From NCBI RefSeq assembly GCF_002270485.1, contig NZ_NQOG01000005.1:1-64000 (forward strand): a stretch of 64,000 nt of DNA, in the 5' to 3' direction. This stretch comes from Anaerostipes hominis (ex Lee et al. 2021). Lineage in GTDB: Bacteria > Bacillota > Clostridia > Lachnospirales > Lachnospiraceae. The position numbers and the translations under genes were made by a program. The notes under the pieces are model-generated. The model saw nothing but the letters and a program-made list of their open reading frames with translations, searched no databases and was not told where the DNA came from. This document shows positions 35,056 through 63,431 of the stretch, piece after piece; the first letter of the stretch is position 1; the number at the start of each line of letters is the position of its first letter.

Positions 35056-36202
35056 ACAGTGGGTCCGGGAAGGGTTTGATCATTACTATGTTGTGCCTAA
35101 AACAGGCGGGGAAGTTTATGAAGAGCAGGTCCTTCTGTCAAATATGATCGCGGGGATCCTTCCCTGTGAACTTCGGAGGACGGAAAATGAAGAGGCATAT
35201 TATTTTCATCTTGTTTCATCTGATTTATATATTGACCAGATTGGAAAGCTGGATGCGGGAAAATTTTTTATGGATCTGATCACGACGATAGAAGAAGCGG
35301 AGGATCACCTGCTGAATCCGGATCAATTTATTCTGACACCGAGGCATGTGTATGTTTTCGGCGGGAAGCCGGCTCTCTGCTATGTGCCGGGAAACGGATC
35401 AGACATCACAGAGCAGCTCATGGAGTTTGTACAGTCCTGTATTGATCAGCTGGATTATGGAAGCCGGAGCCAGGTCACTTTTTTTTACGAACTGCATAAC
35501 AGGCTGAGAAAATCCCCAGTCTCCCTGGAAGGGCTGAAACAATTTATGAATCCTGAACCGGTATTGATTGAGCGGGCAAAGGAGTTTCCGGGAACAGAAG
35601 AATTCATAAAAGATGAACCTTTTGAGAGCAAGAAAGATAAAAGAGGCAGGATGCAGGTCTGTTCTGCCATGCTGTATATTCCGCTTCTTTTCTCTGCCGC
35701 ATATTTTGCGGTCAGAGCATGGAATGAGGGAATGACCTATTCGAATCTCAGAGGGATTGTGATCGCAGGGTTTCTGATTATGCTAAACACAGGATGCCTG
35801 TGGGCAGAAGTAAAAAACAGCAGAAAAATCAGAGTGAAGCCGAAAGAAGATGAGAAACAGCCTGCGGATGAGACCGTGATGATGTGTGATGAAACCGTGC
35901 TTTTAGTCCGGGATAAAGGACCTGTTTTAAAGCCTTCGGGAGAGGAACATACGGAAATAGAATTAAACAGCGCTGAGTTCACTGCAGGGAGGCAGGAAGA
36001 AGCAGTTGATCTCTATCTGCCCCAGCCCGGAGTAAGCCGGAGGCACTTTCAGATATTGACAGAGAATGGGGGATACATACTCAGGGATCTGGGATCGAGA
36101 AACGGAACATTTTTGAATGGTGAAAGAGTGTGGAAGGAAACGGAACTAAAGAGCGGAGATGTGATAAAAGCAGGTACAGAACAATTTGAATTTATGATAT
36201 AA
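35048..36202 (+). CDS. DUF6382 and FHA domain protein
   Basis: A 384-residue protein. The N-terminal ~170 residues match the DUF6382 type (REGFDHYYVVPKTGGEVYEEQ), two hydrophobic spans lie near 205-260, and a C-terminal forkhead-associated domain has the phosphothreonine-binding pattern GVSRRHFQI and DLGSRNGTFLNGERV. FHA proteins with this layout are common at the end of clostridial Tad loci and may link pilus function to Ser/Thr phosphorylation. No kinase is in the window. It overlaps the pseudopilin gene by 8 bp. Confidence 0.78.
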   Translation: MNEQWVREGFDHYYVVPKTGGEVYEEQVLLSNMIAGILPCELRRTENEEAYYFHLVSSDLYIDQIGKLDAGKFFMDLITTIEEAEDHLLNPDQFILTPRHVYVFGGKPALCYVPGNGSDITEQLMEFVQSCIDQLDYGSRSQVTFFYELHNRLRKSPVSLEGLKQFMNPEPVLIERAKEFPGTEEFIKDEPFESKKDKRGRMQVCSAMLYIPLLFSAAYFAVRAWNEGMTYSNLRGIVIAGFLIMLNTGCLWAEVKNSRKIRVKPKEDEKQPADETVMMCDETVLLVRDKGPVLKPSGEEHTEIELNSAEFTAGRQEEAVDLYLPQPGVSRRHFQILTENGGYILRDLGSRNGTFLNGERVWKETELKSGDVIKAGTEQFEFMI

Positions 36203-36242
36203 TTCCAATAAAGTTGAAAAGGCTTCTATTGGAGGAAATGTC

Positions 36243-37172
36243 ATGTATCAGAGAATATTAAACTTGCTAAATATCAGAGGATATCAAAAAGAAATGACTC
36301 CTTTGGGCCCATGTTATGTAAAAGAAGAGCTTAGTAGAAAAAAAGGAGTGTTTATTGCTTACGAGCATAAACCGGACGGAAGCCTTTATACTGCAGAGGA
36401 AACGGGCTCATTGAATGAGGAACTGAAGCAGTATATTGGGCCGAAGGCATCGATTCTTGTATTGATTCTTTCAGAACAGGGCGGATCCATATGGACGGAC
36501 CCTGACAGGTCTTTTGAAGAATTATATGATCCTGTCTGCATGATACTTTCAGCTTCAGACAGCAAGGGCCGGTTATCGGCTCCGTCAGAGGAGTTCCGTT
36601 TCAGAAAACTGAAAGATTACCGGGCTACGGCTGTTATATTGATGATCAATATTTTCATGTATCTGTGGTCGGCGGCCAGCACAGAGATCCTTAATTGGGG
36701 AGCGCTTACATGGATGCATGCATTCAAACAGGGGGAGCTTTACCGTTTGGTTACCAGCAACTTTCTGCACAATGGATTTGATCATCTGTTTAACAATATG
36801 ATCGTCTTTGTTTTGATTGGAAGCAGACTGGAACGGAGCTTCGGCAGGGCCAGATATGTGGTTTTATACATGGGAGCCGGGTTATGCGGAAGCATCGCCT
36901 CCGCTGTATACTATATGAATATAGGAGAAATGGTGGCATCTGTCGGGGCATCGGGAGCTATTTTCGGACTCATTGGTGCGATGCTTTGGATCTTGATCAA
37001 AAACCGGGGTTATCAAAAAGAATTTTACGGAGGAGGAGTCGCACTTATGATCGCGGGAAGCCTGTATCACGGCTTCTCTACCATGGGAGTTGACAATGCA
37101 GCCCATATTGGGGGCTGCATCGGGGGATTCCTTTTGGCTATCTTGCTGTATCGGCGAGACAGGGGAAAATAA
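36243..37172 (+). CDS. Rhomboid family intramembrane serine protease
   Basis: A 309-residue protein with a ~130-residue cytoplasmic N-terminal part and a rhomboid core. HNGFDHLFNNMIVFVLIG holds the HxxxN region, GASGAIFG has the catalytic serine near residue 237, and AHIGGCIGGF the catalytic histidine near residue 287. It cleaves membrane-embedded segments of unknown substrates. ATTGGAGGAAATGTC precedes the ATG. Its last 35 bp overlap the convergent histidine kinase gene. Confidence 0.9.
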   Translation: MYQRILNLLNIRGYQKEMTPLGPCYVKEELSRKKGVFIAYEHKPDGSLYTAEETGSLNEELKQYIGPKASILVLILSEQGGSIWTDPDRSFEELYDPVCMILSASDSKGRLSAPSEEFRFRKLKDYRATAVILMINIFMYLWSAASTEILNWGALTWMHAFKQGELYRLVTSNFLHNGFDHLFNNMIVFVLIGSRLERSFGRARYVVLYMGAGLCGSIASAVYYMNIGEMVASVGASGAIFGLIGAMLWILIKNRGYQKEFYGGGVALMIAGSLYHGFSTMGVDNAAHIGGCIGGFLLAILLYRRDRGK

Positions 37173-37824
37173 GGGTGAAGGTGGTGCCCTGATTTAAGGC
37201 CGAATCCATATGGATAGAGATGTCCAATTCCCTGGCAATCTCACTGACTACGGATAGGCCAATGCCGTTTCCTTTGGGCACAAAAGAGACGCCGCGGTAA
37301 AAGGCGCGGGACTGCTGTTCTTTTGTCATGCCGATTCCGGTGTCAGAAAGACTGCAGACAATATAATCGCCTTCCCGGCTTAAATGGACAGAAATCAGAG
37401 GCTCTCTTGAGGCCTCTTTTTTTCTGCTGATTGCGTTGACACCATTAGAGATTAAGTTGTTGAAGATTTGAAGGAATTTAGTCTTGGCGCCCTTGACATA
37501 ATAGGGGGAGAAATCCTCTGTCTGGACAGAAAAGCGGATTTTACACTCGTTTAGCCTGGAATTCCATGAACACCTGATCTCTTCCAGGAGGGCTTTTAAG
37601 TCCACGGGCTCCAGTGCGGCTGAGGCATCGGATACAGGGGAGAGCATTTGGCGGACCATGTCAAAGACAGAGGAAAAATCAGCTTTCATTCCGGACCAGT
37701 AAATGTCCTTTAAGAGCTCCGGGTGTGTCTGCTCTATGTACTGAAGCTGGCTGTAAATTAAAGTCAGAGAGTTTTTTAATTCATGAGAAAATGTTGTCAA
37801 TTCATTTTGATTCTTCATATTCAC
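37138..37824 (-). CDS. Soluble sensor histidine kinase without receiver partner
   Basis: A 228-residue kinase with no membrane span and no sensor domain. The phospho-acceptor His14 is in TFSHELKNSLTLI at the extreme N-terminus. The ATP-binding domain has the N-box NNLISNGVNAI, G1 box SDTGIGM, and G2 box GNGIGLSVV. No response regulator gene lies next to it, so it is an orphan, in size like small cytoplasmic phosphorelay kinases. Tail-to-tail overlap of 35 bp with the rhomboid gene is unusual. Confidence 0.82.
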   Translation of the reverse strand: MNMKNQNELTTFSHELKNSLTLIYSQLQYIEQTHPELLKDIYWSGMKADFSSVFDMVRQMLSPVSDASAALEPVDLKALLEEIRCSWNSRLNECKIRFSVQTEDFSPYYVKGAKTKFLQIFNNLISNGVNAISRKKEASREPLISVHLSREGDYIVCSLSDTGIGMTKEQQSRAFYRGVSFVPKGNGIGLSVVSEIARELDISIHMDSALNQGTTFTLIFPCLADTAR

Positions 37825-37984
37825 GCTTCTTTCTATTACAAATTTTATACATCGGCAACTATAAGTTTATATGGGAGATCGTGTAAAAGGCAACGGTAAA
37901 CAGGGGCAAAAGTTCGACGATTTTTTTCCTTTTCCATTTTCAGAGGTTATGATACAATAAGGAAATGATGCAGGAGGAAAGAAT

Positions 37985-39583
37985 ATGTCATATATGGCTT
38001 TATACCGAAAGTTCCGGCCGTCGGCCTTTGATGAGGTCAAGGGGCAGGATCATATCGTCACGACGCTGAAGAACCAGCTGGAAGCCGGGCGTATCGGCCA
38101 TGCCTATCTGTTCTGCGGAACCAGGGGGACCGGAAAGACGTCGGTTGCAAAGCTGCTTGCAAAAGCAGTAAACTGTGAGCACCCGGAGGACGGAAATCCG
38201 TGCGGGGTCTGCGAAAGCTGCAGGGAAATCCAGGAAGGCAGTTCTATGAATGTGATGGAGATTGACGCGGCGTCAAACAACGGTGTTGACAATATCCGCG
38301 ATATCAAAGAACAGGTGCAGTATTCTCCGGCTTCAGGAAAATATAAAGTGTTTATTATCGACGAGGTGCATATGCTTTCCATGGGGGCATTTAATGCCCT
38401 GTTAAAGACTTTGGAAGAGCCGCCGGAATATGTGATCTTTATTCTGGCTACTACAGAGGTACACAAGATACCCATAACGATCCTTTCCCGATGCCAGAGA
38501 TATGATTTTCACCGGATCACAGCAGATATTATTGCTGACCGGCTCATGGAACTGATGTTGGAAGAACACGTGGAGGCGGAAGAAAAAGCGCTGAGATATG
38601 TGGCCAGGATGGCGGACGGTTCCATGCGTGATGCGCTGAGTCTTTTGGACCAATGTATTGCATTTTATCTTGGGAAAAAACTGACCTATGAAAATGTGCT
38701 TGAAGTTTTAGGGACAGTAGATATCAGTGTATATGAAAGACTTCTGGACAGCATTCTTGTAAATGACGTGACGGAAGTCATCGGGATCGTCGGAAAGGTT
38801 GTGGAGCAGGGAAGAGAACTTTCCCAGTTCATCACAGATTTCATCTGGTATTTGAGAAATCTTCTGCTGGCAGGCAAAGGTGATGCGTCCATGGAGGCTC
38901 TGGAAGTTTCTGCGGAGCAGCTCAGCCTGATGCAGAAAAAAGCAGCACAGGTGGAAGAAGAGACTGTGATCCGGTATATCCGCATACTGTCGGATCTGCT
39001 GAACCAGATCCGGTTTGCCACATCAAAAAGAGTGCTGGCCGAGGTGGCATTAATCAAGATGTGCCGGCCGCAGATGGAGACCGACCTCTCCAGTGTGCTC
39101 GAGCGAATGCGCATGCTGGAAGATTCGCTTGAACAGATAAAATCCCGGGGAATCTCCCTGGCACCTGAGACTGCCTCAGAAGAACCCGTTCAGCAGCCTG
39201 AGGAGCCGGCAAAGACGCCGGAGCAAATACTGGAAGAGAGGCTTCCGAAAGCCAGAGCCCAGGAACTCAAGGAGATCATTAAGCACTGGAAGCAGGTGAA
39301 GCTTGCACAGCCGCCGATGATAAAGAATCTCCTTTCGAAGGGAATCCTGACTGCGGATGAATCGACAGAAGTTCTGAGACTTATGTTCAAACCGGAAGGC
39401 AGCATGAACATGGGGAAGGATTACTTTCAGAGACATCCCGAAAAGATAGAGGCACTGGAAGCAGAACTGGCGAAGAGATCAGGGTTCCAGGTAAAGATAG
39501 AGATCGGTGAACTGGAGTCTGAGAAAAACGAAGACACCATTAATCTGGATTGTATCCACATGGATGTGACAATAGAAGAGTAA
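37985..39583 (+). CDS. dnaX: DNA polymerase III subunits gamma/tau
   Basis: A 532-residue clamp-loader ATPase. Walker A is [12 protein letters not shown] (about 44-55); a four-cysteine zinc module follows ([16 protein letters not shown]); Walker B is [10 protein letters not shown]; and the sensor and SRC motif [10 protein letters not shown] complete the AAA+ core. The C-terminal ~170 residues are the tau-specific variable region. First gene of the dnaX-ybaB-recR block conserved in Firmicutes. CAGGAGGAAAGAAT precedes the ATG. Confidence 0.95.
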
Positions 39584-39612
39584 AAAGAATTTTATTTCAG
39601 GAGGTATTTAAA

Positions 39613-39966
39613 ATGGCAAAAAGAGGCGGATTTCCGGGTATGGGCGGAAATATGAACAACTTGATGAAACAGGCGCAGAAGATGCAGAAGCAGATGGAAG
39701 AAACCACAAAACAATTAGAAGAGACTGAATATGAAGCCACAGCCGGAGGCGGAGTTGTAAAGGTTGTTGTTTCAGGCAAAAAGGAAGTGGTATCCGTAAG
39801 TCTGGATGAGGAAGTGGTTGATCCGGATGATATTGAGATGCTGGAGGACCTGATCGTGGCAGCCGCCAATGAAGCGCTTCGCAAGATGGAAGAAGATTCA
39901 CAGAGCAAAATGGGGAAAATCACCGGAGGTCTCGGAGGAGGCATGGGAGGCGGATTTCCTTTCTAA
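39613..39966 (+). CDS. YbaB/EbfC family nucleoid-associated protein
   Basis: A 117-residue DNA-binding protein of the YbaB/EbfC family. Typical features are the N-terminal [18 protein letters not shown] helix, the [17 protein letters not shown] core, and a Gly/Met-rich tail. Start at 39613 is set by CAGGAGGT. It lies 29 bp after dnaX and 15 bp before recR, the usual arrangement. Confidence 0.93.
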
Positions 39967-39981
39967 GGATGGATAGCGGAT

Positions 39982-40578
39982 ATGGATTATTACAGCAGCC
40001 AGATCACGAAGTTGATTGAAGAATTGGGGAAGCTTCCCGGAATCGGCCCCAAGTCGGCCGGGAGGCTTGCTTTCCACATTATAAATATGCCGCTTGACCA
40101 GGTGAAGCATTTGTCTGAGAGCATCCTGGATGCAAAGGAAAATGTCCACTACTGCAGAGAGTGCTGTACCCTGACGGATCAGGACATCTGTCCGATCTGT
40201 TCCAGCAGCAAGCGTGATCACAGTACTATTATGGTGGTGGAGAGTACCAGGGATCTGATGGCCTATGAGAAAACAGGAAAATACGAGGGCATTTACCATG
40301 TCCTGCACGGAGCAATATCTCCGATGCTTGGAATCGGACCTTCAGATATCCGGCTGAAAGAATTGATGGCCAGACTTCAGGGGGATGTGAAAGAGCTGAT
40401 CATTGCTACCAACTCAAGCCTGGAAGGAGAGACCACGGCAATGTATATAAGCAAGCTTGTGAAGCCGACAGGCATCAAAGTCAGCAAAATTGCCAGCGGA
40501 GTTCCGGTGGGCGGAGATTTGGAATATATTGATGAGGTTACCCTTCTTCGGGCACTGGAGGGAAGAACTGAATTATGA
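39982..40578 (+). CDS. recR: Recombination mediator protein RecR
   Basis: A 198-residue RecR that helps load RecA at gaps. It has the helix-hairpin-helix [13 protein letters not shown], a four-cysteine zinc finger ([16 protein letters not shown]), the Toprim segment [16 protein letters not shown], and the C-terminal Walker-B-like [16 protein letters not shown]. Normal length. A terminator follows. Confidence 0.95.
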
Positions 40579-40582
40579 AATG

Positions 40583-40614
40583 AAAAAGAGCAGCCGGGCA
40601 GGCTGCTCTTTTTC
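40583..40614 (+). terminator. Intrinsic terminator of the dnaX-ybaB-recR operon
   Basis: AAAAAGAGCAGCC and GGCTGCTCTTTTT form a 13-bp stem with loop GGGCA, ending in a T-run. Confidence 0.9.
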
Positions 40615-40840
40615 TGTAAGTAACTTTAAAACAATAAGGAGAGGATTTTCATCCTCAAGAGGGGTAGGATTTGAAAGTATTTAAAAATGTTTAACTACTT
40701 TACATTTCTTATTCTACTGGATAATTGTGACCAAACCGTGAAGAAACTGTGGATAAATTAAAAAAAGAGGTTAAATTATCAGAATCTTTTGAAAAAAATA
40801 ATGAGAAAACAAAAAAACACTGTATACATATTGAAATTGC

Positions 40841-40869
40841 TTGACAATATAAAACCCATTTTTTATAAT
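40841..40869 (+). promoter_or_regulatory. Perfect consensus sigma-A promoter of the candidate ncRNA
   Basis: TTGACA (40841-40846), 17-bp spacer, TATAAT (40864-40869). This is the only fully consensus promoter I found in the window, and no ORF of useful size follows it on the plus strand before 41400. The stretch 40615-40840 before it is AT-rich and appears empty. Confidence 0.85.
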
Positions 40870-40875
40870 AATAAC

Positions 40876-41300
40876 ATAAAGAGGAACAAGGGAACGGATA
40901 CCTAGAAAGAATCGATGGGAGGCGATATTGTTTGGATATTATGTCGAAAGACATAGAAGACATTCTATATACAGAGAGTAATAAATTTCATACAGTGAGC
41001 CTTCAGAATATAGAATAAATATGTCCAGTATAGATTTTATACACAGGTCGGAGAGACAGGACAGGTAGAACGTCATACGAAGAATCAGACGTATATAGAA
41101 GAGAACGGAAATAAAAGAAATGAAAGATCAAGAAGTTTGATGTTTGAGTCGCAGAGACTCAGAGTTCGGATTGATTGAGAGATTGAAGGGAATACAGAAG
41201 TTGTGTATGGCATGTATGAAATAGGGCGGATCGAAGAGAAGCCTCCGATCAATAACAATTAAATAATCTAAAAGGTGAGTCGCAGAGACTCACCTTTTTT
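40876..41300 (+). ncRNA. Candidate structured non-coding RNA, about 425 nt, unidentified
   Basis: The stretch runs from a consensus promoter to an intrinsic terminator and has no reading frame with a ribosome site. It is purine-rich. Local structure is visible: TATGTC-GAAA-GACATA (40940-40955) is a GNRA-loop hairpin, TGAGTCGCAGAGACTCA (41145-41161) is a hairpin repeated exactly in the terminator (41276-41292), and ATTGATTG (about 41171) can pair at long range with the CGATCAAT near 41247-41254. I looked for signatures of RNase P, tmRNA, SRP RNA and 6S RNA and did not see them. The neighbours are recR upstream and a HIT-protein gene with its own promoter downstream. Known large clostridial RNA classes could not be checked here. 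Confidence 0.65.
41271..41300 (+). terminator. Terminator of the candidate ncRNA
   Basis: AAAGGTGAGTC and GACTCACCTTT form an 11-bp perfect stem with loop GCAGA, followed by T residues. Confidence 0.9.
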
Positions 41301-41348
41301 AGTTAAGCGAATATTATAGTAATAATTTCACACTTCATTTTTGGATTC

Positions 41349-41377
41349 TTGAAAAAGGCCTATAAATAAGATACAAT
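41349..41377 (+). promoter_or_regulatory. Sigma-A promoter of the HIT-protein gene
   Basis: TTGAAA (41349-41354), 17-bp spacer, TACAAT (41372-41377), 24 bp before the start. Confidence 0.65.
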
Positions 41378-41400
41378 ACTTACCAAAGGAGATGAAGATC

Positions 41401-41817
41401 ATGAAAAAACAGGATTGTATATTTTGCAGGATAATCAGCGGAGAGATTCCGTCAACAACCATTTATGAAAATTCAAAATTTAAGGTGATCATGGATATCG
41501 CTCCGGCCAACAAGGGGCATGTACTCATATTGCCGAAAGAACACTATGATAATATTTACGATATAGATACGGCCACAGCCGGAGAACTGTTTGAACTTGC
41601 AGCTATGACTGCGAGGGCTTTAAAGTCGGTTCTTGGCTGCGACGGAATGAACATTTTACAAAACAATGGAACTGTGGCTGGTCAGACTGTCTTCCATTTT
41701 CATATGCATATCATCCCGAGATTCGAGGATGATACCGTGAATATAGGATGGAAAGAACTGAGCTATGAAGACGGAGAGATGGAACAGCTCAGGGAAGCCA
41801 TACGGAAGGAAATGTAA
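41401..41817 (+). CDS. HIT family nucleotide hydrolase (Hint-like)
   Basis: A 138-residue histidine-triad protein. DCIFCRIISGEIPS at the N-terminus and the triad VFHFHMHIIPRF at the C-terminal side are diagnostic. Such proteins hydrolyse purine nucleoside phosphoramidates. I chose the ATG at 41401 over 41392, because the AAAGGAG ribosome site ends at the base just before 41392. The flavin reductase gene follows 4 bp later. Confidence 0.92.
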   Translation: MKKQDCIFCRIISGEIPSTTIYENSKFKVIMDIAPANKGHVLILPKEHYDNIYDIDTATAGELFELAAMTARALKSVLGCDGMNILQNNGTVAGQTVFHFHMHIIPRFEDDTVNIGWKELSYEDGEMEQLREAIRKEM

Positions 41818-41821
41818 GGGC

Positions 41822-42421
41822 ATGTCAAAGATATCCTGGAAACCGGGCAATATGATATATCCCCTGCCGGCAGTGATGGTAAGCTGCGGCGCAGAGGGCG
41901 AGCCTGACAATATCATTACTGTGGCATGGACGGGTACGATCTGTACAAATCCGCCGATGACCTATATTTCACTGAGACCCCAGAGACATTCCTACCATAT
42001 GATTGAAAAGAGCGGTGAGTTTGTCATCAACCTTACCACGGCAGAACTTGCCAAAGCGACAGACTTCTGCGGCGTGCGCTCCGGAAGGGACCTGGATAAG
42101 TTTAAAGAGACGGGACTCACGAGGGAACACGGTACACTCTCATATGCGCCGTATATCAAGGAGAGCCCCGTGAACATCGAATGCCGGGTAGAAAAGATCA
42201 ATCCTTTGGGCTCCCACCATATGTTTACGGCCAGAGTTGTAAACATTCTCGCAGATGATACTTATATGGAAGAAAACGGACGGTTTGCCCTCGAAAAGAC
42301 CAATCCTCTGATCTATTCACATGGAGGATATTTTGAGACGGGCAGACAGATCGGAAGTTTTGGATACTCCGTAAAGAAGAAAAAAAGGAAGAAAAGAAAT
42401 GACAAGCCAAAAAGGAAATAA
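41822..42421 (+). CDS. Flavin reductase family protein (flavoredoxin type)
   Basis: A 199-residue FMN-binding split-barrel protein of the flavin reductase/flavoredoxin family. Typical text includes PLPAVMVSCG, NIITVAWTGTICTNPPMTYISLRP, SGEFVINLTT and DFCGVRSGRDLDKF. The C-terminus is strongly basic (KKKKRKKRNDKPKRK). The start at 41822 follows the HIT stop by 4 bp with GTAAGG upstream. Its end overlaps the next gene by 23 bp. Confidence 0.85.
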   Translation: MSKISWKPGNMIYPLPAVMVSCGAEGEPDNIITVAWTGTICTNPPMTYISLRPQRHSYHMIEKSGEFVINLTTAELAKATDFCGVRSGRDLDKFKETGLTREHGTLSYAPYIKESPVNIECRVEKINPLGSHHMFTARVVNILADDTYMEENGRFALEKTNPLIYSHGGYFETGRQIGSFGYSVKKKKRKKRNDKPKRK

Positions 42422-42908
42422 CTATATTTTAATCGGGATGCCCGGGGCCGGCAAGAGCACCATCGGAGTTCTGCTCGCCAAGGCATTGGGAGCCGAGTTT
42501 ATCGATACGGATCTGGTGATCCAGCAGAAGACCGGAAAGCTTTTAAGAGATATTATCAGCCAGGAAGGAAACGAAGCATTTAAAAAGATCGAGGAGGAGG
42601 TCAACGCATCTGTCGAAGCAGAAAACTCTGTGATTGCACCGGGGGGAAGCGCCATTTACAGCCCCAAAGCGATGGAACATTTTAAAAATATTGGTACAGT
42701 CATCTATCTGAAGCTCGATTATGAGACGGTTGCCCAACGCCTCGGGGACCTTGCGGCAAGGGGTGTGGTGCTGGATAACGGGCAGACACTCAGTGACTTA
42801 TACCATGAAAGAATACCTCTCTATGAAAAATATGCAGACATCACGGTAGATGCCGATGATTTAAAGATCGGGGAAGCCTTAGAAAAAGTGTTGGAAAACT
42901 TAATGTAG
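42399..42908 (+). CDS. Shikimate kinase-like protein
   Basis: A 169-residue P-loop kinase of the AroK family. Walker A is GMPGAGKSTIG (about 13-23) and the DTD motif FIDTDLVIQ follows. It differs from standard shikimate kinases: the FRxxE motif reads FKKIE, the GGG motif reads APGGSAI, and the lid lacks the usual RPLL text (RGVVLDNGQTL). Shikimate kinase is the best label, but a related small-molecule kinase is possible. No other aro genes are beside it. Confidence 0.65.
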   Translation: MTSQKGNNYILIGMPGAGKSTIGVLLAKALGAEFIDTDLVIQQKTGKLLRDIISQEGNEAFKKIEEEVNASVEAENSVIAPGGSAIYSPKAMEHFKNIGTVIYLKLDYETVAQRLGDLAARGVVLDNGQTLSDLYHERIPLYEKYADITVDADDLKIGEALEKVLENLM

Positions 42909-42919
42909 TGTGATATACT
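42891..42919 (+). promoter_or_regulatory. Putative promoter of murA within the end of the kinase gene
   Basis: TTGGAA (42891-42896), 17-bp spacer, TATACT (42914-42919). It would give a ~165-nt untranslated leader. Confidence 0.6.
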
Positions 42920-42945
42920 GATAAATATGCGAGTAAGCGGCATGG

Positions 42946-42988
42946 AACTTTTGGACTTATGAAGGCTTTGATTGCCTGTCCAAGGGTT
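42946..42988 (+). promoter_or_regulatory. Structured 5' leader of murA
   Basis: AACTTTTGGAC (42946-42956) pairs with GTCCAAGGGTT (42978-42988) with two G-U pairs, and GGC...GCC forms an inner hairpin. It lies just after the predicted transcript start and ~100 nt before murA. No terminator follows. It does not match a riboswitch I know. Confidence 0.45.
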
Positions 42989-43090
42989 ATGTATGAAAAA
43001 GATACGCTTATTTTTCAGAAGAATGGATAGAGTATTGATAGAGAATGAATGATTCGATTGATTGAATAGAGTTTTATATAGAGGTGTATG

Positions 43091-44386
43091 ATGGAACAAT
43101 ATATCATTAAAGGCGGAAACCCACTGGTAGGGGAAGTTGTCATTGGAGGTGCGAAGAATGCTGCACTGCCCATTTTAGCAGCAGCAGTTATGACAGACGG
43201 GACGTGTACTATTGAGAATATGCCCGATGTCAGGGATACAAATGTTCTGCTCCAGGCCATGGAAGGCATTGGAGCCACAGTTAATAGATTAGGGAAACAT
43301 GAAGTAGTTATCAGCGGAAGCGGAATGAATGTGGACTGCGATGTGGATAACGAGTATATCCGGAAGATCAGGGCTTCTTATTATCTGATCGGGGCTCTTC
43401 TCGGGAAGTATAAAAGGGCCAGAGTAGCCCTGCCGGGCGGATGTGAGATCGGAAGCCGTCCGATTGACCAGCATATTAAAGGATTTAAGGCGCTGGGAGC
43501 CACGATTGAGATTGAAAACGGCATGATCACAGCGACTGCCGATGAGTTGATCGGCTGTCACATTTATATGGATGTGGTATCTGTCGGTGCGACTATTAAC
43601 GTCATGATGGCAGCGGCTTTGGCAAAGGGAAATACAACCATTGAAAATGTGGCAAAAGAACCGCATGTAGTTGATGTAGCCAATTTTTTGAACAGCATGG
43701 GAGCCAGCATACGCGGAGCCGGCACTGATGTGATCAAGATCAAAGGCGTAGAAAAGCTTGGAAATTGTGAATACTCCATTATCCCGGACCAGATTGAGGC
43801 GGGGACATTCATGACTGCGGCCGTGGCTACAAAGGGTGATATTACGATCAAAAATGTTATTCCAAAGCATCTGGAAGCCATCAGCGCGAAGCTGGAGGAG
43901 ATCGGTGCGCAGGTAGATGAGTTTGACGATGCGGTCAGAGTTGTAGCGACAAAAAGGCTCGATTCCACCCAGATCAAAACTCTCCCGTATCCAGGGTTTC
44001 CGACGGATATGCAGCCTCAGATGGCAGTGTCACTGGCTCTGTCCAACGGAACTAGCATCGTTTCAGAGAGCATTTTTGAAAACCGTTTCCGGTATGTAGA
44101 TGAACTGACAAAGATGGGTGCCCGTATCCAGGTGGACGGCAGAACGGCCATCATTACCGGAGTCAAATTGTTTACCGGGGCAGATGTCTCAGCACCCGAT
44201 CTGCGTGCAGGGGCAGCGCTGGTCATTGCAGGCCTTGCGGCCGACGGTTATACTACGGTCAGCGATATCGGATATATCTACCGGGGCTATGAAGGTTTTG
44301 AAAAGAAAATTCAAAATCTTGGCGGAGATATCCAGCTGGTAAACAGCGAGAAAGAAATCGCCAGATTTAAACTTCGTATTGTATAG
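43091..44386 (+). CDS. murA: UDP-N-acetylglucosamine 1-carboxyvinyltransferase
   Basis: A 431-residue MurA catalysing the first committed step of peptidoglycan synthesis: enolpyruvyl transfer from PEP to UDP-GlcNAc. GGAKNAALPILAA is at the N-terminus, and the active-site cysteine lies in PGGCEIGSRPID. Having Cys and not Asp at this place predicts fosfomycin sensitivity of the enzyme. FPTDMQPQM and ENRFRYVDEL are further family segments. ATG at 43091 is better spaced from GAGGTG than the ATG at 43088. Confidence 0.94.
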   Translation: MEQYIIKGGNPLVGEVVIGGAKNAALPILAAAVMTDGTCTIENMPDVRDTNVLLQAMEGIGATVNRLGKHEVVISGSGMNVDCDVDNEYIRKIRASYYLIGALLGKYKRARVALPGGCEIGSRPIDQHIKGFKALGATIEIENGMITATADELIGCHIYMDVVSVGATINVMMAAALAKGNTTIENVAKEPHVVDVANFLNSMGASIRGAGTDVIKIKGVEKLGNCEYSIIPDQIEAGTFMTAAVATKGDITIKNVIPKHLEAISAKLEEIGAQVDEFDDAVRVVATKRLDSTQIKTLPYPGFPTDMQPQMAVSLALSNGTSIVSESIFENRFRYVDELTKMGARIQVDGRTAIITGVKLFTGADVSAPDLRAGAALVIAGLAADGYTTVSDIGYIYRGYEGFEKKIQNLGGDIQLVNSEKEIARFKLRIV

Positions 44387-44404
44387 ATAAAGGGGGAATT
44401 GCCG

Positions 44405-45043
44405 ATGCGACAATACCTGAAGAATGAAGTTTTTAAAATATCCAAGTGGATAGAATTTTATTTATCTGCGCTGATTGCCATAGCGGTTATCGGCGGCGGG
44501 ATCTGGATGATCAAAGATCTGATCACTATTTTATCATCCAATCCGGATTCCAATGCTGTCTATCAGTTTGTACTCAATGCATTTAATCTTGTGATCTGCG
44601 TGGAATTCATCAAGATGCTTTGCAAGCATACTGCGTCAACACTGGTAGAAGTGCTGATGTTTGCGATTGCAAGACAGATGATTGCGCAGCATACCAGTCC
44701 GGTGGAAAATCTGCTCTGTATTTTTTCAATCGCGGTCCTCTTTATTATAAGAAAGTATTTTCTGGACCGTTTTGAGGACATTGACAAGACAGTATTTCTG
44801 CCAAACCAGAAGATTGCCAAAGTAAATGAGCTGGTCCATGTGAACATTCCGGAGGAATACAAAGGAGAGTCCATAGGGGAAGCAGTACTCAAGGGCATCG
44901 ATCTGGAAAAGGAAGAAGTAAAGTGCGGGCATTGTTATTATTTTCCGGGCGGGGCAATCCGCGTATCTAAAGTTGCCGCAGGGCAGGTGAAGGAAGTGGA
45001 AGTCATCCGCAGCAGGAATGTAAATATCATGCCGAATTTATGA
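44405..45043 (+). CDS. PsiE-like membrane protein with C-terminal TrkA-C-like domain
   Basis: A 212-residue protein. Four hydrophobic spans fill residues ~15-115 (for example [17 protein letters not shown] and [19 protein letters not shown]), as in phosphate-starvation-inducible PsiE-like proteins. The C-terminal ~80 residues ([16 protein letters not shown]...[20 protein letters not shown]) resemble a ligand-binding TrkA-C domain. Role is not established. The ATG at 44405 follows AGGGGGAATT; a TTG at 44399 is less likely. A terminator lies 14 bp after the stop. Confidence 0.65.
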
Positions 45044-45056
45044 TTTTAGATTGAAG

Positions 45057-45082
45057 CAGGTCCGATCAGTTCGGGCCTTTTT
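45057..45082 (+). terminator. Intrinsic terminator before metK
   Basis: AGGTCCGA and TTCGGGCCT form a stem with one G-U pair around TCAG, followed by TTTT. No SAM riboswitch precedes metK; the gap is too short. Confidence 0.75.
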
Positions 45083-45125
45083 CGATATATATAGTTGCTG
45101 TTCAGCAGAGCGAAAGGAGCACATA

Positions 45126-46316
45126 ATGGAAAAAATATTATTTACATCAGAATCCGTGACTGAAGGACATCCGGACAAAGTCTGTGACCAGATTTCAGAT
45201 GCTATTTTAGATGAACTGTTAAAACAAGACCCGATGAGCAGGGTAGCATGTGAGACTTGTACCACAACGGGACTCGTTATGGTCATGGGCGAGATCACAA
45301 CCAATGCCTATGTGGATATCCAGAAAATAGTAAGACAGACTTTGACGGATATCGGATATACGAGAGCCAAATATGGATTTGACGCGAGTACCTGCGGTGT
45401 CATCACGGCCATCGATGAACAGTCCAAAGATATTGCCCTTGGTGTGGACAAGGCCCTGGAGGCAAAGGAATCCGATATGTCCGATGAGGAACTGGATGCC
45501 ATCGGAGCAGGTGACCAGGGCATGATGTTTGGATTTGCTACAAATGAGACGGAGGAATATATGCCCTATCCGATCTCTCTTGCTCATAAGCTGTCCAAGA
45601 GACTTACGCAGGTACGTAAAGACGGGGTTCTTCCTTATCTAAGGCCGGACGGAAAGACACAGGTCAGTGTGGAATATGATGAAAACGGAAATCCTTTCCG
45701 TCTGGAAGCTGTAGTCTTATCTGCACAGCATGATCCGGAAGTGGATCAGGAGCAGATTCACGAAGATGTGAAAAGAGAGATCTTTGATAAGGTTCTTCCG
45801 AAAGAAATGGTGGATGATCAAACAAAATTTTTCATCAATCCGACAGGACGTTTTGTCATCGGGGGGCCGCAGGGTGACGCGGGACTCACGGGAAGAAAAA
45901 TCATCGTAGATACCTACGGCGGATATGCACGGCACGGCGGCGGAGCTTTTTCAGGCAAGGACTGTACCAAGGTAGACCGTTCGGCTGCTTACGCTGCGCG
46001 CTATGTGGCAAAGAATATCGTAGCTTCCGGACTGGCTGACAAATGTGAGATCCAGCTGTCTTATGCGATCGGTGTTGCACATCCGACTTCCATCAATGTG
46101 GATACGTTCGGCACCGGAAAAATATCCAGCGAAGATCTCGTGGAACTGATCAGGAAAAACTTTGATCTGAGACCGGCAGGCATCATCAAGATGCTGGATC
46201 TGAGAAGGCCGATCTACCGTCAGACGTCCAACTACGGACATTTCGGAAGAAATGACCTGGATCTGCCGTGGGAACGCCTGGATAAGGCAGAGATGCTGAG
46301 AGAACAGGCCAAATAA
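45126..46316 (+). CDS. metK: S-adenosylmethionine synthetase
   Basis: A 396-residue MetK making SAM from methionine and ATP. Signatures are [20 protein letters not shown] at the N-terminus, [12 protein letters not shown] in the middle and the phosphate loop [17 protein letters not shown]. Start 45126 follows GAAAGGAGCACATA. Next is the adenine deaminase gene, 9 bp after the stop. Confidence 0.95.
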
Positions 46317-63329: not shown

Positions 63330-63431
63330 TTAAAGCGGATAAAATCCGCCGTACTCTGCACAATGTTTCATCGGTCTGAATTGTACAGAGTTTACTCGCC
63401 TTCTCGGCTGGTCTGATCTATATAAGCCCAT
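63330..63431 (-). CDS. 33-residue leader ORF upstream of the ABC-F gene
   Basis: Starts at ATG 63431 after AAAAGGAGCAACCAGC and reads MGLYRSDQPRRRVNSVQFRP then MKHCAEYGGFYPL. It is basic and soluble. Position between pflB and the ABC-F gene on the same strand, a strong ribosome site and the terminator/antiterminator after it suggest a leader peptide whose translation senses ribosome-targeting drugs. It could also be an independent small protein. Confidence 0.55.
   Translation of the reverse strand: MGLYRSDQPRRRVNSVQFRPMKHCAEYGGFYPL

Follow-up and report, generated by a model that had tools for sequence, protein, structure and literature searches.

A structured RNA candidate of about 425 nucleotides with a probable small open reading frame between recR and a HIT gene in Anaerostipes

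Several large structured RNAs of bacteria, namely GOLLD, ROOL, OLE and raiA, have functions that are unknown or partly known, and GOLLD and ROOL are described as encoded by phages and prophages (PMC12286853). RNAIII of Staphylococcus aureus is 514 nt long, with a 26-codon ORF near its 5' end and many hairpins; its translation is delayed in a 3'-end-dependent manner, and a contact between the 5' and 3' ends is discussed as a cause (PMC8383071). For VcdRP of Vibrio cholerae, a small protein of 29 residues is described on a regulatory RNA (PMC8672173).

The DNA analyzed here (the window) comprises 64,000 nucleotides of Anaerostipes hominis (contig NZ_NQOG01000005.1, positions 1 to 64,000 of the forward strand), and the interval between recR and a HIT gene on its plus strand contains a candidate for an RNA of about 425 nt. 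The surrounding ORFs are presumably dnaX, ybaB, recR, HIT and others. Eleven Anaerostipes genomes, including the source genome (G000), were compared by DNA and covariance-model searches, and homologues of the RNA were found in five of them, which form two groups: A. caccae-like (G000, G008 and G009) and deep-branching (G006 and G002). The features of the locus, all on the plus strand, are as follows, where "best fold" gives the number of homologues whose best fold contains the helix.

40817–40830, plus: ACACTGTATACATA, including the palindrome TGTATACA, 5' of the -35 box; putative operator
40841–40869, plus: sigma-70-type promoter TTGACA-17-TATAAT, perfect at 12 of 12 positions
40876–41300, plus: candidate RNA, about 425 nt; limits predicted from the -10 box (start) and the terminator (end)
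40917–40922, plus: Shine-Dalgarno sequence GGGAGG, recognized by sequence
40918–40923, plus: P1 5' arm GGAGGC; its first five bases are the end of the Shine-Dalgarno sequence
40932–41018, plus: probable ORF with UUG start, 28 codons and a stop (MDIMSKDIEDILYTESNKFHTVSLQNIE); open in five of five homologues
40940–40955, plus: GNRA hairpin TATGTC-GAAA-GACATA; best fold of five
40985–40993, plus: P2 5' arm ATTTCATAC, within the ORF; from alignment and folds
41000–41005, plus: P3 5' arm CCTTCA, within the ORF; from alignment and folds
41022–41063, plus: P4 (TGTCC:GGACA) with inner hairpin P4.1; best fold of three (P4) and four (P4.1)
41128–41178, plus: P6, a long hairpin with apex GAGUC-GCARA-GACU; apex in best fold of five
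41184–41189, plus: P3 3' arm TGAAGG; core in best fold of four, not G009
41192–41208, plus: P7, hairpin ATACA:TGTAT; best fold of two
41214–41222, plus: P2 3' arm GTATGAAAT; best fold of four, not G009
41241–41246, plus: P1 3' arm GCCTCC; best fold of four, not G002
41270–41300, plus: intrinsic terminator; stem 41270–41298, near-symmetric

The original prediction had described a perfect promoter and a terminator enclosing a non-coding RNA between recR and a HIT gene, and the signals and the position proved correct. The promoter is the only perfect TTGACA/TATAAT pair with a spacer of 16–18 on both strands of the window, where 0.03 are expected, and its hexamers and 17-nt spacing are the same in all five homologues, with differing spacer sequences. 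The signal search lists the stem at 41270–41298 on the minus strand, and the plus strand runs on from it as CACCTTTTTT; between the two lineages the form of this stem is kept and its sequence is different. The RNA lies downstream of recR in all five homologues, followed by HIT in four; in the fifth, G002, the contig ends past the terminator within a group II intron, which is also present upstream of HIT on another contig. In that genome, the intron sits directly behind the RNA terminator (L041 1–90; L056 2053–2128). The high abundance once predicted for the RNA is suggested by the perfect promoter, which only hints at it. Upstream of the -35 box, ACACTGTATACATA is exact in all five RNA-bearing genomes, and the 11 genomes contain one further exact copy, in a genome without the RNA and within a stretch read as coding. 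This sequence with its palindrome TGTATACA is a possible operator. As a marker of a regulon the palindrome was rejected: one-mismatch copies elsewhere in the genome look coding or unrelated.

In the other six genomes of the genus, the DNA and model searches found no match to the RNA. The spacing between recR and HIT is 350–481 nt in four of these and 4.1 kb in G007, and the two genes are on separate contigs in G003. The RNA itself varies in length from about 425 nt here to about 500 nt in two relatives. When a tree was built from proteins (RecR, YbaB, a portion of DnaX, and HIT where present), G006 and G002 came out as the earliest-diverging lineage of the genus (84% support); under this tree the RNA would have been present early and lost once, and under another rooting gained once. 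From the 5' block we built a covariance model (R1), run with strict filters that lose weak matches. Among 397 genomes of the family Lachnospiraceae it gave the source genome and four weak matches (E = 0.017–0.435), none of them convincing: alignments show the helices absent or broken in all four, and of two inspected in the DNA, one covers a terminator and a gene start and the other looks coding. Among 392 genomes of the order, a sample largely of the same family, R1 with the same strictness found only the source genome at E ≤ 0.1. A search of the Lachnospiraceae, as had been proposed, thus yielded homologues within Anaerostipes, but no convincing one in the wider family set. Nor was the RNA matched in phage and plasmid records, found in viral contigs by exact pattern search, or reported in the main texts of the open-access literature searched. 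At 19 loci examined for the recR–HIT order in other genera, recR was found in 14 and not in five; none of the 14 had a HIT-like next gene or the small RNA block described below, though one of them offered just 67 bases downstream.

Rfam 15 (4227 families, including ROOL, GOLLD and OLE) gave no match at the RNA at gathering scores over the whole window, the sole match in which lies elsewhere. With E ≤ 10 over 40580–41400 nothing came near a gathering score (the best for the RNA was 19.7 bits against 45), and the G006 version at E ≤ 5 likewise gave nothing near a cut-off. The earlier statement that signatures of RNase P, tmRNA, SRP and 6S RNA are missing holds: the tmRNA and SRP RNA models do not match here, and the 6S RNA (RF00013; C13:43762–43940, 75.3 bits) and RNase P RNA (RF00010; C13:21388–21725, 304 bits) of the source genome are on another contig, and the present RNA is thus not an overlooked 6S or RNase P RNA. 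RNAIII also gave no Rfam match, and no agr context was recognized. Judged by the Rfam scan, the RNA is not ROOL, GOLLD, OLE or raiA, and the match to a known family that could have spoken against its novelty did not appear. In short, an independent, structured and presumably transcribed RNA in no Rfam family is well supported, and the family seems to occur in only some members of Anaerostipes. Elsewhere in the window, the uup RNA (RF03060, 54.8 bits) is recognized at 63353–63400 on the minus strand.

Each of 100 dinucleotide shuffles of the source sequence has a higher folding energy than the sequence itself (z = -5.9, or -4.9 if the terminator is excluded), the G006 version is also lower in energy than all 100 of its shuffles (z = -2.3), and all five homologues accommodate seven helices. 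The structured nature of the RNA in the original prediction is well supported. Confirmed were the GNRA hairpin at 40940–40955, whose loop is GAAA here, GCAA in G009 and GGAA in G006 and G002, and the possibility of long-range pairing; P1, P2 and the core of P3 each occur in four of the five best folds. P1 (GGAGGC:GCCUCC) is predicted to close the molecule and occlude the Shine-Dalgarno sequence; its 3' arm reads ACCTCT in G006 and G002, with one G-U pair and one of the six pairs lost. P2, as RNA AUUUCAUAC:GUAUGAAAU, joins arms whose starts are 228–292 nt apart across the five homologues, and its 3' arm is GTATGAGAT in G002, where pairing is kept through G-U. P3 has the common core CCUUC:GAAGG, immediately 5' of P7. 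In P6 the apex is conserved, and the lower stem, with a lineage-specific sequence, folds in both lineages. P4.1, GTATA:TATAC here, shows two compensatory changes in G006 and G002 (GTGCA:TGCAC), and P7, weak in the A. caccae-like sequences, is ATACU:AGUAU in those two genomes (one compensatory change). Altogether, both partners differ in three pairs (two of P4.1, one of P7) and a single partner in two pairs (one each in P1 and P2); P2 and the P3 core hardly vary. The covariation check thus gave positive but thin results: because the five sequences represent effectively two distant groups, the covariation is good, not strong. The best folds also differ, that of G009 being without P2, P3, P4.1 and P7, that of G002 without P1, and those of G006 and G002 without P4. 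With the 5' block alone, RNAalifold favored a pairing of the Shine-Dalgarno sequence with CCUUC of P3, in competition with P1 and P3, and because of this local alternative a two-state fold is possible. On average the Shine-Dalgarno sequence was unpaired with a probability of 0.38 in G006 and 0.49 in G002, against 0.17 in the A. caccae-like group of three.

A 17-base hairpin sequence was also said to be repeated in the terminator. The pair is exact here (41145–41161 and 41276–41292), but it is not general, being confined to the three A. caccae-like genomes; G006 and G002 have a different terminator stem and the P6 copy alone, which makes the repeat a local addition. In G000 and G008 the apex loop of P6 reads GCAGA, in G009 GCAAA, and the terminator copy has the matching base in each. 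As judged from the sequences, the two copies have changed together, and for this concerted change gene conversion or a shared constraint could account.

The original prediction also held that the stretch contains no ORF, which is probably wrong. By scanning short frames preceded by a Shine-Dalgarno sequence, and choosing the frame after viewing several starts, we found a 28-codon UUG frame behind a strong Shine-Dalgarno sequence (40932–41018). The arrangement GGGAGG-9 nt-UUG exists in all five homologues. The frame is 28 codons long in the A. caccae-like group and 27 in G006 and G002, owing to one in-frame 3-nt gap, with the stop (TAA or TGA) at the same position in all five. The predicted peptides are MDIMSKDIEDILYTESNKFHTVSLQNIE (G000 and G008), MDIMSQDIEDILYTISNKFHTVSLQNIG (G009), MNMSEDIAHCTVSIHNKFHTIDLQNIR (G006) and MNMSEDIAHCTVSIQNKFHTIDLQNIR (G002), and a Pfam search with two variants gave no match. 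A second frame, with UUG at 40928, was dropped, as its ends are unequal. More ORFs of at least 20 codons are present in the five RNAs; a frame over the P6 apex exists in both lineages but has no start codon in G000, and the remaining ones differ. Whether the 28-codon frame is a gene or a by-product of conserved helices is the point on which the two leading explanations divide. A purely non-coding structured RNA, serving as a regulator or scaffold, would fit the folding energy, the shared helices and the paired changes, and also the codons: substitutions between G000 and G006 by codon position are 12, 9 and 8, without a third-position excess, and the changes between close relatives are solely nonsynonymous (3/3 for G000/G009 and 1/1 for G006/G002). 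Moreover, the conserved end of the peptide overlies the P2 and P3 arms, and the UUG start also speaks against coding. Against the non-coding explanation, the frame, start, Shine-Dalgarno spacing and stop are kept in five genomes at an ORF identity of about 65%. By our reading, the three codons in which G000 and G006 differ synonymously (AAT/AAC, ACA/ACG and CAG/CAA) sit just outside P2 and P3, which favors the ORF. When conserved and variable alignment columns were each permuted among themselves (20,000 rounds), both frames of G000/G006 stayed open in 586 of 20,000 shuffles, and only 40 of 20,000 also reached the observed similarity; for G009/G006 (n = 20,000) 683 were open, 61 of them also as similar. 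We consider translation of the ORF somewhat more likely than not, and give the non-coding explanation roughly one chance in three. Of the original term "non-coding RNA", the independent structured transcript is well supported, but "non-coding" is doubtful because of the conserved 27–28-codon frame with its Shine-Dalgarno sequence.

The explanation we prefer, at about even chances, is an independently transcribed, structured RNA of about 425 nt with a probable ORF of 27–28 codons in its 5' third, probably acting as a dual-function regulator. Comparison of the homologues shows the promoter, the place and the helices to be conserved, and suggests the ORF; transcription, abundance, translation, switching and action in trans are presumed. 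In such a molecule, the strong promoter would provide much RNA, whose 3' segments would pair with upstream sequences: GAAGG with the end of the ORF, GUAUGAAAU with its middle and CCUCY with the Shine-Dalgarno sequence. The closed fold would hide the ribosome-binding site and allow little peptide, and the structured body may act as a regulatory RNA in trans or in the formation of a particle. If the 5'-3' pairing opened, ribosomes would translate the ORF and P2 and P3 would be broken. A bolder version, which we regard as speculative and rather unlikely, is a translation-coupled switch unlike the catalogued families. In one state the RNA would be a closed, structured regulator in which three long-range helices lock the ribosome-binding site and the ORF; in the other it would be an open mRNA, and translation of its 27–28-residue peptide would dismantle the regulator. 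The RNA would have arisen early in, or with, the genus and been lost cleanly in one branch.

A small mRNA with the peptide as its sole product and the structured 3' part as a stabilizing untranslated region would account for the Shine-Dalgarno sequence, start and stop. However, the middle of the peptide is unconserved, yet helices far downstream of it are conserved, and we consider this improbable. A leader or attenuator of the HIT gene is still less credible and indeed very improbable: the RNA shares the strand of HIT, lies directly 5' of it and has a terminator at its end, but HIT has its own promoter-like site (TTGAAA-17-TACAAT, 41349–41377), by eye a similar site precedes it in the RNA-less relatives, and in six of the 11 genomes HIT exists without the RNA.

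Between recR and the RNA, a likely small RNA with its own terminator is found on the minus strand at about 40582–40704. Its 51-nt core is the same in all 11 genomes of the genus, except for one base in G006 and G002, and its predicted parts are a 5' hairpin, a C-rich single strand, a hairpin with a GAAA loop and species-specific terminators. At 40727–40753 of the window, upstream of the -10 box of this small RNA, direct repeats (GTGAC/GTGAA/GTGGA) recur every 11 nt, and similar ones are present in relatives; we take them to resemble a response-regulator site of the Pho or ResD type. The best Rfam match of the small RNA is RsaE/RoxS (23.4 bits against a cut-off of 79), and in 299 family genomes only short weak matches were found outside the genus. 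RoxS is known for C-rich regions and control by ResD (PMC4409812), and a RoxS sponge in Bacillus subtilis (PMC8216469) is a precedent for a sponge. With divergent neighbors and C-rich single-stranded stretches in one of them, the larger RNA could be such a sponge, but this was rejected, as unlikely as the HIT leader, because the predicted pairing is no better than chance (194, 197, 191, 73 and 18 of 200 shuffles were at least as stable in G000, G008, G009, G006 and G002, respectively), the five best duplexes per genome share no seed of at least 8 in the C-rich part, and the small RNA is retained in the six genomes without the RNA.

Large structured RNAs are poorly catalogued in gut commensals. 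If the dual-function reading is true, an RNA family confined to part of a butyrate-producing genus would combine compact, testable helices with a small interwoven ORF, the mutual control of translation and RNA folding would become directly testable, and the case would show how single-genus RNA families evade Rfam-style searches.

Compared with the known systems, the present RNA, as predicted here, shares with RNAIII a stand-alone nature, a similar length, a short 5' ORF, many hairpins and a 5'-3' contact. It differs from RNAIII in lacking a sequence match in Rfam and in its surrounding genes, with no agr among the ORFs of 36000–46000, and by our reading its peptide is acidic, with no obvious likeness to an amphipathic toxin. 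The resemblance, drawn by analogy, is one of layout and not of homology. VcdRP resembles the predicted product here in being a small protein of similar size (27–28 codons in our case). VcdRP and similar dual-function small RNAs differ from the present RNA in length and fold, and no sequence relation is expected. Like GOLLD, ROOL, OLE and raiA, the RNA is predicted to be large and structured; unlike GOLLD and ROOL, it lies between recR and HIT and has no match in phage or plasmid records. As for dual-function RNAs in general, the sequence signals of a promoter and a terminator are present and conserved.
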